DNA from: Jiella flava
GTDB lineage: Bacteria; Pseudomonadota; Alphaproteobacteria; Rhizobiales; Rhizobiaceae
Length of the DNA: 64,000 bases
Assembly: GCF_017349315.1 (NCBI RefSeq)
Contig: NZ_JAFMPP010000007.1
Location: forward strand, 124,001-188,000
Reading direction: 5' to 3'
Position numbers and translations under genes: made by a program. The notes under the pieces were generated by a model. That model did not search any database. It worked only from the letters and a program-made list of their open reading frames with translations, and was not told the DNA's origin. Positions 36,800 to 42,762 of the stretch are shown here, one piece after another. Positions within the stretch are counted from its first letter, which is position 1; each line of letters opens with the position of its first letter.

Positions 36800-36845
36800 C
36801 GCCAGCCTCAAACCAAAGCCCGCGCGCAGGCGGGCGCTGTTGGCC

Positions 36846-37874
36846 TCACCGCTCGGTGAGCTTGAACTCGATCCGGCGGTTGCGGGCGCGCGCGTCCGCC
36901 GTGTCGGCGTCGTCGAGCGGCTGATATTCGCCGAAACCCGTCGCGGCGAGGCGGTTCGGCGGAACTCCGCGCGAGATCAGGAAGCGGACGACGGCGTCGG
37001 CGCGGGCCGTGGACAGCGCCCAGTTGTCCGCAAAACGGCCGCCGGTGATCGGGATGTTGTCGGTGTGACCATCGACGCGGATGATCCAGGGGATGTCTGA
37101 CGGGATCTCCTTGACCAACTCGTTGATCGCATCGGCGAGCTTGGCCATCTCGTCCTTGCCGGCGGGTTGCAGCACGTCCGAGCCGGAGGGAAACAGCACT
37201 TCGGACTGAAACACGAAGCGATCGCCGACGATGCGGATGTTCTTGCGGTCCGAAAGGATCTCGCGCAGCCGTCCGAAAAAGTCCGAGCGATAGCGCGACA
37301 GCTCTTGCACCCGCTGGGCGAGCGCGACATTCAGGCGGCGGCCGAGATCAGAAATCTTGGTCTGGCTCTCCTTGTCGCGCTTTTCGGATGCATTGAGGGC
37401 GTCCTCCAGCGCGGCGATCTGTTGGCGCAGCGCCGACAGCTGCTGATTCAGCAATTCGATCTGCGAGCGGGCGCGCTGGGAAATCGTCTTCTCATCGTTC
37501 AGCGCGCTCTTCAGCTCGCCCATTTGGGCATTGGCGGAGGCCGCCGAACCGCTGCCCGACTCAAGCGCCTTCTGCAGTCGCGAGCGCTCGTCCTCGGCGC
37601 TGGCGAGGGAGGCGCGCAGCGTGGCGATTTGATCCTGATAGTCCTGACCGTTGGAGCGCTCCAGCGCCAAAAGCTGAGTCAGCTCGTTGATCTGGCTGTT
37701 CAAACGGTCGAGCACCGCATCCTTGCCGGAAATCTCCCGGCTGAGCAGAAACTGCGCGAGCACGAAGACCGACAAGAGGAACATGATCGCCAGCAGCAGC
37801 GTCGATAAGGCGTCAACGAAACCCGGCCAGTAGTCGATGGTGCGTTCGCTGCGACGGTTCCGGGACAAGGCCAT
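36846..37874 (-). CDS. MotB/OmpA-like peptidoglycan-binding partner of a proton channel
   Basis: A 342-residue protein with one transmembrane helix (about 19-44) carrying D21 in PGFVDALSTLLLAIMF, the position of the proton-carrying Asp of MotB. Residues about 49-190 are a long predicted coiled coil. About 215-342 form an OmpA-type peptidoglycan-binding domain (RVDGHTDNIPI with D272; ARNRRIEFKL). The start is 6 bases after the stop of the MotA/ExbB-like gene, so the two are co-translated. No flagellar genes are nearby. It probably forms the rotor-like axle of an energised envelope complex. Confidence 0.88.
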   Translation of the reverse strand: MALSRNRRSERTIDYWPGFVDALSTLLLAIMFLLSVFVLAQFLLSREISGKDAVLDRLNSQINELTQLLALERSNGQDYQDQIATLRASLASAEDERSRLQKALESGSGSAASANAQMGELKSALNDEKTISQRARSQIELLNQQLSALRQQIAALEDALNASEKRDKESQTKISDLGRRLNVALAQRVQELSRYRSDFFGRLREILSDRKNIRIVGDRFVFQSEVLFPSGSDVLQPAGKDEMAKLADAINELVKEIPSDIPWIIRVDGHTDNIPITGGRFADNWALSTARADAVVRFLISRGVPPNRLAATGFGEYQPLDDADTADARARNRRIEFKLTER

Positions 37875-37880
37875 GCGCGA

Positions 37881-38963
37881 TCAGCCCTCCTGGTCGTCCG
37901 GGCCGCCGCGGCGGCCTTGCCCAAGCTGCGGCGCGCCGATCTGCCCGGCGAGCTTATCGAGGACGCGGCGCATCTCTTGCTGCTCGCCCGCCTGGTTCTC
38001 GACGAAATCGCGCAGCAACTGCTGCTCGCTGCGCATGTGCTGAACGAGCCCCTGAATGCTCTCGGCGAGATTGGCCATCGCCGCGCTGGTGCGCGGGCTG
38101 GTGCTCTGGTCGGAGATCATCTTGTTCAAGCGGTCGGACAGCAGCCGCAGTTCGTCCGCCCCCTCGCCTGCCCCGTTCGAGGCCGGCAGGACCATGTCCG
38201 ACCCGACGTCGGTGACCGACGAGAGCCAGTTTTCGAGCTCGGTGTAGAAGCGGTTCTGCGCGCGGCCGATCTGCAGGTCGAGAAAGCCGAGAATCAACGA
38301 TCCCGACAGGCCGAAGAGCGAGGATGAGAACGCCGTGCCCATGCCCGCCAGCGGCGCGGAAAGGCCAGCTTTCAACGCTTCGAGGATAGAGTTGGTGTCG
38401 CCGCCCGCAGGATCGAGCCCCTGAATCGTCGCGCCGATCGAGCCGATCGTCCGCAACAGGCCCCAGAAGGTGCCGAGCAAGCCGAGAAAGACCAGAAGGC
38501 CGATCAGATAGCGCGCGATGTCGCGGGTCTCGTCGAGCCGGGTCGCGATCGAATCGAGGATCGAGCGCATCGAGGTTGTCGACAGTGAGATCGCCCGGCG
38601 GCGGCCGATTAACGCCCGCATCGGCGCAAGCAGCACCGGATCGCGAAGCTTGTCGAAGTCCGCCGAGCCATCGCGATAGGCGTTGACCCAGCGCACCTCG
38701 CGCGACAGGCGCAGAACCTGGAGCAGCGCCAGGAAGATGCCGACCGCGAGAACGCCGACGATCAGGCCGTTGAGGCCGGGATTGGTGGTGAAGGCCGCCT
38801 TCACCTGGCGGCCGAGGATCGCCGCGACGAACCCGGCGAGCGCCAGAAACACCAGCATCGACCAGAGGAAAACGAGCGGACTCGATAAGCGATTCGGATC
38901 GAAATCGTCCGGTCTTCGCGGCTTGTCAGTCGGCGCGTCGACGACCTGCATATGGTTTTTCAC
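37881..38963 (-). CDS. MotA/TolQ/ExbB-family proton channel protein
   Basis: A 360-residue inner-membrane protein with four helices (about 29-50, 64-84, 152-172, 205-231). TM3 contains LLVFLGLLGTFWGLLRT and TM4 contains GMGTAFSSSLFGLSGSLIL, the Thr-bearing TolQ/ExbB signatures. The C-terminal 110 residues are cytoplasmic and coiled-coil-like. The start is a GTG at 38963 or the ATG four codons later (38951). By family it forms a pentamer around two copies of the MotB-like partner and uses the proton gradient. Confidence 0.87.
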   Translation of the reverse strand: MKNHMQVVDAPTDKPRRPDDFDPNRLSSPLVFLWSMLVFLALAGFVAAILGRQVKAAFTTNPGLNGLIVGVLAVGIFLALLQVLRLSREVRWVNAYRDGSADFDKLRDPVLLAPMRALIGRRRAISLSTTSMRSILDSIATRLDETRDIARYLIGLLVFLGLLGTFWGLLRTIGSIGATIQGLDPAGGDTNSILEALKAGLSAPLAGMGTAFSSSLFGLSGSLILGFLDLQIGRAQNRFYTELENWLSSVTDVGSDMVLPASNGAGEGADELRLLSDRLNKMISDQSTSPRTSAAMANLAESIQGLVQHMRSEQQLLRDFVENQAGEQQEMRRVLDKLAGQIGAPQLGQGRRGGPDDQEG

Positions 38964-39361
38964 TCAACTCTCTGACATTGCGGGCGATTCGATGGGCGCG
39001 CCATAACACGGCCGCTTACCCCGGAAGAAGGCAGAGCGACGCCGACGCACAGAACCGACGATCCTCGATCGACCCAAAAACCATATAAAATATCGCTGGA
39101 AATGGAAATGTCGGCCGGGCAAATGACTGCCGCCGCAAAGGTTGCAATCGACGCAGGGCGACAGCGGTCAGTCTTTGATTCACCGACCGCAGCCACGGAA
39201 AAACCGCCACGCGATTTCCATGAACGCCAATCCGGGCACCTATTCGCCCGCCGCCGTGGCGCAACTGCCGCATCGCACCACGATCAGCGCGACAAGGCAA
39301 ACGCTGCGATTTCGGCTGCGGCATGGCAGCCGGCGAGGCTGACCCTCAAGCTGCCGCCGGA
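38964..39361. other. Intergenic region upstream of the MotA/OmpA-like pair
   Basis: A 398-base region. It contains an AT-rich patch around 39080-39095 that could serve the minus-strand promoter. I see no coding frame or RNA I can support. Confidence 0.45.
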
Positions 39362-40198
39362 TCACGCCTCGTCGGCGCTGTCCGTTGCACGAGCCTTGGC
39401 GCGCTTCTTCGCCGCGTCGCCGAGCTGGGCGATCAGCGCCTTATGGATCAGCTCATTGCCGCAGGCGATCTCGCCCATCATATGGTCGAACTTCGCGCCC
39501 GCGACATTGGTAACGAAGCCGCCGGCTTCGCGCACGATGATCGCGCCGGCAGCGATGTCCCAAGACTTCAGCCCCTTTTCCCAAAAGCCGTCGAGACGGC
39601 CTGCCGCGACATAAGCGAGATCGAGGGAGGCCGCACCTATGCGGCGGATGCCACCGGATTCGGAAATGATCTGGCGCAGCTCGTAGAGATAACCGGCGTG
39701 GTCGCCATGGCCGAGAAACGGCGTGCCGGTGCCGAACAAGGCTTCGGGGAGCCGGCTGCGCGCGGACACGCGGATCCGGCGATCGTTGACGAAGGCGCCG
39801 CCGCCCTTTTCGGCGACATAGAGCTCGTCCTGGGCCGGATTGAAGATCACGCCGGCGACGATCTGGCCGTCGCGTTCGAGCGCGATCGAGACCGCGAAAT
39901 TCGGAATGCCGTGCAGGAAGTTCATAGTCCCGTCGAGCGGATCGACAATCCAGCGATGCTGTGGATCCTTGCCCTCGACGATGCCACGCTCCTCCATCAG
40001 GAAGCCCCAATCCGGCCGCGCGCGGGACAGCTCTTTGAAGACGATCTCTTCCGCCCGATGATCGGCGACCGAGACGAAGTCCGCCGGTCCCTTCACCGAG
40101 ACCTGTAGATTTTGGACCTCGCCAAAGTCACGGATCAGCGAGCGGCCAGCCTTCATGGCGGCCTGCGTCATGACGTTGAGCAGCGCGGAACGGGCCAT
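39362..40198 (-). CDS. suhB: Inositol monophosphatase family protein (SuhB-like)
   Basis: A 278-residue Mg-dependent phosphatase. Metal-site motifs are FLMEERG (Glu), IVDPLDGTMNFLHG (Asp-Asp) and SWDIAAGAIIVREAGG (Asp). Length fits the family; SuhB-type members also bind NusA in E. coli. The C-terminal 20 residues are basic and charged. It lies just downstream of efp, the next gene on the same strand (68-base gap). The substrate (inositol phosphate or other phosphomonoester) is uncertain. Confidence 0.9.
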   Translation of the reverse strand: MARSALLNVMTQAAMKAGRSLIRDFGEVQNLQVSVKGPADFVSVADHRAEEIVFKELSRARPDWGFLMEERGIVEGKDPQHRWIVDPLDGTMNFLHGIPNFAVSIALERDGQIVAGVIFNPAQDELYVAEKGGGAFVNDRRIRVSARSRLPEALFGTGTPFLGHGDHAGYLYELRQIISESGGIRRIGAASLDLAYVAAGRLDGFWEKGLKSWDIAAGAIIVREAGGFVTNVAGAKFDHMMGEIACGNELIHKALIAQLGDAAKKRAKARATDSADEA

Positions 40199-40266: not shown

Positions 40267-40830
40267 TCAGTCGGCGCGACGCAGATAGGTGATCTCGTTG
40301 GTGTCGACGAGGATCTTCTCGCCCGCCTCGATGAAGGGCGGCACCATGACCCGCACGCCGTTTTCCATCACCGCCGGCTTGTAGGACGAGGCCGCCGTCT
40401 GGCCCTTGACCACCGGGTCGGCCTCGACGATCTGCAGCACCACCTGGTCCGGCAGCTGGATGCCGATCGGGCGCTCTTCGTAGCTTTCCACGGTCACGGT
40501 CATGCCGTCCTGCAGAAAGGCCGAACGATCACCGACGAACGCCTGCTGGAGTTCGAGCTGCTCGTAGGTCTCGGTGTCCATGAACACCAGCATCTCGCCT
40601 TCGGCGTAGAGGAACTGGTAGTCCTTCTGTTCCAGGCGCACCCGCTCAACGGTCTCGGCGGCGCGAAAGCGCTCATTCAGCTTGGTGCCGTCGATCAGGT
40701 TCTTCAGTTCGACCTGTGCGAAAGCACCGCCCTTGCCGGGCTTGACATGCGCGGTCTTGACCGCGACCCAGAGCCCGCCATCGTGCTCGATCACATTGCC
40801 GGGACGGATTTCATTGCCGTTGATCTTCAT
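40267..40830 (-). CDS. efp: Elongation factor P
   Basis: A 187-residue translation factor that rescues ribosomes stalled at polyproline. Domain I has the loop VKPGKGGAF with K33, the residue lysylated by EpmA in bacteria that have it. The three OB-like domains are complete through [20 protein letters not shown] and the end ITYLRRAD. The ATG at 40830 gives the family start [12 protein letters not shown]. The open frame to 41016 is not used. Confidence 0.95.
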
Positions 40831-41038: not shown

Positions 41039-42112
41039 CTACCGCGTGCGAAATCGGTTGGCCGCTTCGAGTGCCGCCTTTTGCGCTTGCGGGTCGAGGC
41101 CGCGGAAGAAATCGTCGAGACCGGGGTCGCTGTTCTTCAGTCGCTTGGCCAGCACCGCCCACATCGCGGCAGCCGCCTTGTCCGGATCGGTGCCGATGCC
41201 GTCCTTATAAAGATGAGCGACGCGGTTGATGGCGATCGGATTGCCGAGTTCGGCGGCATGGCGCAGAAAGGCAAAACCCACCTTCGGCTCGGCTGGTCCG
41301 CCTTTCCCGTTGATCAGCCAGATCCCGTAGTCGATCTGCGCGGTGTCAAAGCCATTGTTGGCCGACGTCTGCAGCCAGGCCCGCGCCCGGGCGAGATTTT
41401 CGGGCACGCCACGGCCGTTGGCGAAAAGCTGCGACATCGCATATTGCGCTTCCGGAACGCCGGCCTCGGCGGCCTTGCGGAAATAACCGGCAGCGGCCGA
41501 AAAGCCTCCCGAGGGCGAGGCCTCGATCAGCATCTGCGCATAGTTGTATTCGGCGAGCGGCAGGCCCTGATCGGCCGCCGCCTTCATCAAATCGCGGGCC
41601 TTCGCCGGATCCGGCGCAACGGCGCTGCCGTCGAGCAGGATCATCGCGTAGCGGAACTGCGCTTCGGCATTGCCCGCCTTTGCAGCCGCCTCGTACCAGC
41701 GGGCGGCTTCCTTCATGTCCCGGCGTACGCCCAGACCACGCGAATAGATTTCGCCGAGCAGGGTCTGGGCGGCCGGATCGCCGAGATTGGCAAGCGGTTT
41801 GGCCAATTCGATCGCGGTCAGATAATAGCCGCGCTGAAACGCCCCATAGGCCATGTCGGAGGGGCTGGGCTTGGTTGCCGCCGGGCTCTTGTCGCCCGTG
41901 GAGGCCTTATCGGCCGCCGGTCCCTTATCCTGCGACGCATCGGATTTGGTGCTTTCGATGAGTTTGCCGACCGCATCACTCTGATCGCCGCTGCCTGCCG
42001 CAAGGGCCGGTGCCGGCGCCGCCAGACCGCACGCCAGGGCGACACAAAGCCCAGGCATGAAACGCTTCATGCGCGGCGCACCGCGCACGGCCGAACCCAC
42101 CGGCCGACTCAT
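41039..42112 (-). CDS. Exported Sel1-repeat protein
   Basis: A 357-residue protein (343 from the inner ATG at 42070). The ATG at 42112 overlaps the upstream stop by 4 bases; the ATG at 42070 begins directly at the signal peptide (MKRFMPGLCVALACGLAAPA) but has no ribosome-binding site. After a Lys/Asp/Ala-rich linker come about six Sel1-like repeats (for example AAQTLLGEIYSRGLGVRRD, AEAQFRYAMILLDG, PEAQYAMSQLFANGRGVPE). Such solenoids bind partner proteins, often in the periplasm. It is coupled to the ThiE-like gene. Confidence 0.83.
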   Translation of the reverse strand: MSRPVGSAVRGAPRMKRFMPGLCVALACGLAAPAPALAAGSGDQSDAVGKLIESTKSDASQDKGPAADKASTGDKSPAATKPSPSDMAYGAFQRGYYLTAIELAKPLANLGDPAAQTLLGEIYSRGLGVRRDMKEAARWYEAAAKAGNAEAQFRYAMILLDGSAVAPDPAKARDLMKAAADQGLPLAEYNYAQMLIEASPSGGFSAAAGYFRKAAEAGVPEAQYAMSQLFANGRGVPENLARARAWLQTSANNGFDTAQIDYGIWLINGKGGPAEPKVGFAFLRHAAELGNPIAINRVAHLYKDGIGTDPDKAAAAMWAVLAKRLKNSDPGLDDFFRGLDPQAQKAALEAANRFRTR

Positions 42113-42762
42113 GCCGACATCCGCTCGAACACCGCGTCGAAGGTCGCGTTGGCCGCGGCGACGGCTTTGGCGGGATCACCACCGTCGCCGAAGACCGCGC
42201 GGGACAGAGCGACGAACTCCGCAGCGGTTTCGGCCGCGGTCTCCAACGTCGCCAGATCGCCGCCGCCGAGCAGAATGCATGGGATCTCGACCATCGCCGC
42301 CCACCATTTGGCAAGCGCCAGGCTCTTGCGGTGGGCGCCCGGCTCATCGTCGTTGCCGAAGCGTCCGAAGAGGAGATAGTCCGGCATATGCTCGCCGGCT
42401 TCCAGCGCGTGGTGCCGGGTCTCAAAGCCCGAGCCACCGACGATCAGCCGCGGCTGGAACCGCTCGATCACCGCGCCGAGTTCCTCAAGATCACCGGTCG
42501 CCAGATGCAGACCGTCCGCCTTGACCCGACCGGCGACGCGGCTATCGCCGACGACGATCGCAGCGGCACCTGCCGCCTGGATTACCGGCACCAGCGCCTC
42601 GGCATGGCGCTGAAAGCTCTGCTCGTCGCGTCCAGCCGGATCGATAAGAACGGACGCAACGTCACCGCCCGACAACGCGTCGCGCAATCGGGCTTCAGCA
42701 TCGACATCGGCGAGCGGCGTCGTTACGAGCACCAGCCGGGGGCGGATTGGATCGGTCATCAT
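42109..42762 (-). CDS. ThiE-like (thiamine phosphate synthase fold) protein with altered active site
   Basis: A 217-residue TIM-barrel protein resembling thiamine phosphate synthase (VVGDSRVAGRVKADGLHLATGDL; PDYLLFGRFG; CILLGGGD; FVALSRAVFGD). Two active-site segments look changed: the GxHLGQxD motif reads GLHLATGD, and the Thr-rich phosphate loop after the LLFG strand is replaced. It may be a paralogue with another role. It is first in an operon with the Sel1 protein (4-base overlap). No other thi gene is nearby. Confidence 0.72.
   Translation of the reverse strand: MMTDPIRPRLVLVTTPLADVDAEARLRDALSGGDVASVLIDPAGRDEQSFQRHAEALVPVIQAAGAAAIVVGDSRVAGRVKADGLHLATGDLEELGAVIERFQPRLIVGGSGFETRHHALEAGEHMPDYLLFGRFGNDDEPGAHRKSLALAKWWAAMVEIPCILLGGGDLATLETAAETAAEFVALSRAVFGDGGDPAKAVAAANATFDAVFERMSA

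Follow-up and report, generated by a model that had tools for sequence, protein, structure and literature searches.

In the stretch of Jiella flava DNA that we analysed (64,000 nucleotides, positions 124,001 to 188,000 of contig NZ_JAFMPP010000007.1, hereafter the window), we identified a conserved pair of adjacent genes, designated gene A and gene B, that encode the two subunits of a motor of the 5:2 ion-driven superfamily. This class assignment is well supported, and from the genomic context we infer a job in the cell envelope. The two proteins probably form an A5B2 ion-driven rotary motor of the ZorA branch, held to the wall through B and used for housekeeping of the envelope or wall. Gene A (37881..38963; 360 aa) and gene B (36846..37874; 342 aa) are both on the minus strand, with gene B 6 bp downstream of gene A, exactly as in a first-pass annotation made from the sequence, and its reading of the pair as an energised complex of the ExbB/MotA class with a wall-binding B subunit was borne out, gene A being an orthologue of none of the Tol, Ton and Mot proteins. 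The pair is neither local nor recent; it is a core pair of Alphaproteobacteria, whose neighbours are conserved too.

Gene A encodes a four-TM motor subunit of the MotA/TolQ/ExbB type, nearest to ZorA, and its closest named relatives are from Jiella (83-88% identity). The GTG at 38963 is possibly not its true start, the starts of relatives being located near the ATG at codon 5 (38951). In good agreement with the earlier description of a four-helix protein with a cytoplasmic tail, hydrophobic segments at residues 31-49, 66-84, 152-170 and 210-228 represent four TM helices, and the C-terminal cytoplasmic tail (residues 258-360; 37884..38192, minus strand) is mostly helical in the AF2 model; the alignment indicates that the tail in most other orders is longer and carries a conserved end motif. 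At one locus outside Alphaproteobacteria (L126, 8543-10444), gene A is only 267 aa long with a tail of nearly nil, and a full gene B partner is retained. The AF2 model, of modest confidence (pLDDT 70), includes the TolQ/ExbB/ZorA/MotA core with the long helices typical of this superfamily. Structural comparison gave Z scores of 11.8 (TolQ), about 10-11 (ExbB and ZorA) and 9.2 (MotA), and since long-helix models reach middling Z easily, so that Z of about 10-12 for helical bundles is not decisive alone, these values support the fold only jointly with the sequence. Foldseek alone returned no match at E<=0.001, and the MotA/TolQ/ExbB-type Pfam score was borderline (22.7 against 22.9 bits as a protein, and 25.4 bits by genome search). 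The structure alignments start from about residue 48-59 of gene A for both ZorA and TolQ and from about residue 28-33 for MotA, which suggests that gene A carries an extra MotA-like first helix absent from ZorA. The predicted ion-path residues, Thr165 in TM3 (LGLLGTFWGLL; codon 38469..38471) and Ser215 in TM4 (codon 38319..38321), both on the minus strand, were found in all 58 diverse gene A relatives examined, in which GLLGTF is also invariant, and Thr165 falls in the alignment on the Thr that is conserved in ZorA, TolQ and ExbB. The TM core and the polar residues in TM3 and TM4, which characterize the A subunit of the 5:2 superfamily, are thus both present in gene A.

Gene B likewise shows the form of the partner subunit in 5:2 motors, that is, a one-TM protein with a TM aspartate. 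It carries a single TM helix (residues 26-44) and a MotB-type Asp21 (codon 37812..37814, minus strand), predicted to carry the ion and kept in 62 of 64 diverse gene B relatives, followed by a helical stalk and an OmpA-like peptidoglycan-binding domain (residues 227-333; 36876..37196, minus strand; Pfam OmpA, 73 bits, E 2e-20), all as described for the one-helix protein in the first-pass annotation. The peptidoglycan-contact residues D272, N284 and R291 are present in all 64 gene B proteins, and L287 is likewise invariant. The two exceptions for Asp21 (loci L093 and L096, in G233 and G131) belong to one family and represent gene B paralogues without an adjacent gene A, in which the TM-Asp segment is replaced by a signal peptide, giving a motor-less, secreted version of B. 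Since the paralogues without a nearby gene A also lack the TM helix and Asp, the Asp and gene A go together; the coincident loss of both provides a small natural control, and possibly goes back to a single event. The stalk (residues 46-207; 37254..37739, minus strand) was predicted with modest confidence from the AF2 secondary structure, with helices at 17-105 and 111-207 (pLDDT 68) interrupted at GSGSA, around residues 106-110. The coiled coil of 140 residues that had been proposed therefore stands as a helical stalk, but one nearer to 160 residues and broken. The idea that it acts as a long lever was not supported in the form of a simple rigid lever, the length of gene B proteins ranging from 302 to 867 aa across the family and the stalk being broken here. 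Over its whole length (residues 1-342), gene B matches NCBIfam NF006544 (PRK09039) end to end with 599 bits against a cutoff of 362, which places the finding of gene B far beyond chance. Directly after gene B comes a stem-loop that is rich in GC and has a weak run of T (window positions 36818-36835, minus strand); such a stem-loop is no commoner there than in shuffled sequences, and the scan for promoters and terminators gave nothing exceeding shuffled sequence.

The affiliation of gene A was analysed by profile comparison and trees. The hhalign probabilities were 99.3 for ZorA3, 91.7 for ZorA1, 63 for ExbB, 23 for MotA and 9 for TolQ. Under two tree models of a deep alignment of 200 columns with long branches, in which ZorA1 is represented by two rows only and ZorA2 is not sampled, gene A was grouped with ZorA1 and ZorA3 at 98-99% and with ZorA3 at 94%, while TolQ and ExbB were placed together and apart (92-94%) and MotA formed its own clade (99-100%). 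The TM4 ion site is Ser in gene A and in all ZorA rows, and Thr in the TolQ, ExbB and MotA rows. As judged from these comparisons, gene A is orthologous to none of TolQ, ExbB and MotA, and its closest kin is ZorA; for TolQ and ExbB, orthology was rejected on the tree together with the TM4 residue. The earlier label 'TolQ/ExbB-type' thus holds for the fold but not for the closest kin. Clear orthology to a characterised component, which had been set against the idea of a separate system, was not what we found, gene A being placed in the ZorA clade as a separate clade beside ZorA3, and without Zorya partners.

After reading of 72 loci around gene B, the usual gene order turned out to be (thiE)-efp-suhB-[C]-A-B, in which, on the same strand as gene B, gene A was found in 66 loci, a suhB-like gene in 53, efp in 47, a third gene, designated C, in 40 and thiE in 34. 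In the window, the upstream neighbours, all on the minus strand, are a suhB-like gene of the inositol monophosphatase family (39362..40198; Pfam Inositol_P, 221 bits), the gene for elongation factor P (efp, 40267..40830; assigned by sequence), a gene for a secreted Sel1-repeat protein (41039..42112; Sel1, 113 bits) and a gene of the thiamine phosphate synthase family (42109..42762; Pfam TMP-TENI, 102 bits); the Sel1-repeat gene is located between thiE and efp in the window and a few relatives. As the first-pass annotation had noted, no flagellar, Tol-Pal, TonB or defence gene was found among the flanking genes examined, nor was any mobility gene. Gene C, carried by most orders and located directly upstream of gene A in those 40 loci, encodes a secreted protein whose spacer is rich in Pro and Ala (median 42% P+A) and whose C-terminal domain is OmpA-like but degenerate, the Arg being retained and the peptidoglycan-contact Asp and Asn missing. 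The window has at this position a gap of 398 bp (38964..39361) between the suhB-like gene and gene A, without gene C. A search for gene C in the rest of this genome did not find it, but only two other places with an OmpA domain, one of which, near tolQ, is probably pal. In one lineage (L129, 6611-9512), a divergent version of the pair has the order B-A, with a PilZ-domain gene next and efp after it, and this PilZ-domain gene hints at control by c-di-GMP there. At four loci (L101, L103, L108 and L109), gene B has Asp21 and gene A is located elsewhere in the genome, the operon appearing to be split.

Using a profile search for gene A at E<=1e-20 (for strong gene B, E<1e-30), we detected gene A in 188 of 289 sampled Alphaproteobacteria, or in 161 of 235 when good-quality genomes were counted. 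A strong gene B was present in 181 of the 188 A-positive genomes, the other 7 having A alone, and no more than 4 genomes carried B alone. Gene A was retained in alphaproteobacterial genomes as small as 0.7-1.0 Mb; in 101 of the 289 it was not detected at the threshold, and the pair, having been lost in many lineages, is not universally essential. Its presence is independent of flagella, 75 of the 188 A-positive genomes being without FliG (gene A versus FliG, Fisher p 0.22). In a search of 72,556 plasmid records the pair was found only on chromosome-sized records, and in 50,697 phage records it was absent. The class-wide presence, the conserved gene order, the retention in small genomes and the plasmid and phage results together support the housekeeping reading. 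Outside Alphaproteobacteria, strong matches to gene A were obtained in five sampled genomes only, and three representative sequences nest in the trees within the alphaproteobacterial clade, which suggests transfer of gene A out of this class. Weaker matches elsewhere showed E values of 1e-9 to 1e-16; among the five that were read, the two scanned were Zorya type III with DUF2894 and DUF3348 genes, and the other three group with Zorya type III sequences in the tree. In several genomes outside the class (L130-L134), such type III clusters, consisting of DUF3348, ZorA with DUF802, ZorB and DUF2894, adjoin ordinary genes, and it is worth asking whether all of these act in defence.

The kinship with ZorA raises the question of a divergent Zorya-type anti-phage system, in favor of which are the grouping of gene A with ZorA in the trees and the PADLOC scores (gene A with ZorA3, E 2e-14; gene B with ZorB3, E 3e-26). 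Like ZorA-ZorB of types I-III, the pair combines an A subunit of the same clade, with Ser in TM4 and, in most members, a cytoplasmic tail, with a B subunit that binds the wall by an OmpA-like domain; it differs in the extra N-terminal TM helix suggested by the structure alignment, a much shorter A tail and a longer B stalk, and in the core chromosomal position without ZorC-G. The PADLOC matches are limited to the motor core and the OmpA domain, and the accessory genes that accompany ZorAB (ZorC/D, ZorE or ZorF/G) are not found beside the pair: among the ten genes flanking it in the window, no ZorC/D/E/F/G was detected, but only generic matches to ABC-ATPase and WYL-regulator models. Its position amid housekeeping genes is conserved class-wide, its inheritance is mostly vertical and it is absent from mobilisable plasmids and phages. 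Membership of Zorya was rejected for the missing partner genes, the PADLOC matches being weak, and a defence system of this type is, in our judgement, improbable.

An alternative stator for flagellar or surface motility is still harder to reconcile with the data and we consider it very improbable. The four TM helices of A and the MotB-like B, with its TM-Asp and OmpA domain, do resemble MotAB/PomAB, but the TM2-TM3 loop of gene A is short, lacking the large torque-generating loop, and gene A stands apart from the MotA clade in trees; a separate MotA gene exists in the same genome (L004), and the 75 genomes with gene A and without FliG indicate that the pair does not co-occur with the flagellar rotor. 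On the tree and the FliG cross-tabulation, the flagellar stator was rejected. Somewhat less remote, though unlikely, is a third trans-envelope system of the Tol/Ton type, in which C would be a moved periplasmic partner as are TolA, TonB or Pal. The location of C directly upstream of A, its secretion, its Pro/Ala-rich spacer and its OmpA-like end all fit this idea, and TolQR and ExbBD share with the pair the A core fold and the conserved TM3 Thr. In contrast, C carries a signal peptide where TonB and TolA retain an N-terminal TM anchor, its OmpA domain has lost the peptidoglycan-contact Asp and Asn, and A-B persist in the lineage of the window, from which C is absent. Gene A groups outside the TolQR/ExbBD clade, in which TM4 has Thr instead of Ser; the B partners of TolQ and ExbB are without an OmpA domain, and no TolA/TonB, TolB or Pal is encoded near the pair.

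An envelope-maintenance role of an A5B2 motor is favoured by the housekeeping context, the independence of flagella and the missing defence partners. Homology suggests that A-B shares with its relatives the 5:2 stoichiometry, the flow of ions, the rotation and the binding to the wall. For Zorya and MotAB, A has been described to rotate around a wall-bound B under ion flow (PMC11890865). Protons or sodium ions would accordingly pass between Asp21 of B and the ring of Thr165 and Ser215 of A, so that the pentamer of A turns about the dimer of B. The latter would extend on its helical stalk and grip peptidoglycan by the OmpA domain, like MotB and ZorB, an arrangement supported by the intact wall residues in every B examined; the wall would then stay fixed, and A would move together with its cytoplasmic tail. 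The output could be a mechanical one exerted on the wall, or it could reach a partner in the cytoplasm by way of the A tail, as mutagenesis showed for the tail of ZorA; the near-tailless A of 267 aa indicates that a tail-based output cannot be general. The likely job is envelope housekeeping, in which the motor would sense the wall or act on it as the cell grows, and the secreted C probably works with the pair in most orders; this role and the involvement of C are both proposed from genomic context.

A growth gene is located nearby. In Sinorhizobium meliloti, a Sel1-repeat gene is located two annotated genes upstream of gene A, and from domain content and locus order we infer that this is rgsF; the Sel1-repeat protein of the window is a probable orthologue of this growth factor, so that the same cluster would carry it upstream of A-B in both organisms. 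According to PMC7327166, RgsF (SMc03995) is a protein of the TPR/Sel1 type, predicted to have a signal peptide, that is required for growth, its depletion leading to round, short cells; no growth was obtained when smc03995 was knocked out (PMC5929573). A and B are not named among the Rgs polar-growth proteins in the text consulted (PMC7327166), and the adjacent growth gene gives only a hint about their role. A ChvI-binding DNA fragment was mapped within SMc03993 of S. meliloti (PMC3687685), a gene that may correspond to gene A, judging by the order of the loci.

The first-pass annotation regarded the pair as an undescribed system, which is correct with respect to function but not to the genes themselves: B is a full-length member of a curated NCBIfam family (PRK09039, 'peptidoglycan -binding protein'), whose entry name gives wall binding without a physiological role, and both genes are routinely catalogued by automatic annotation. 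In the open-access literature, no functional study of PRK09039, the gene pair or the locus tags was found, subscription literature being mostly outside the search. In a published motor phylogeny, from the tree of which Zorya was left out, non-flagellar B subunits are described as lacking an OmpA-type domain (PMC12505986), and the A-B pair is, besides Zorya, an exception to this generalisation. We tentatively propose, as a possibility with somewhat less than even chances, that A, B and usually C constitute an unstudied energised envelope system that was already there early in Alphaproteobacteria, performs routine work on the wall or envelope and is a housekeeping sister of the Zorya motor; the defence function of Zorya may then go back to a motor for wall surveillance or have an ancestor in common with one. 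As the nearest kin of ZorA among the proteins compared here, and one outside a defence setting, the pair offers a concrete means of testing the origin of Zorya. Motors of the 5:2 type are known to drive swimming and gliding, the import of nutrients, the upkeep of the outer membrane, secretion and defence against phages. A further class-wide motor to which no job has been assigned, in a class with nitrogen-fixing symbionts among its members, would represent a real gap in envelope biology.
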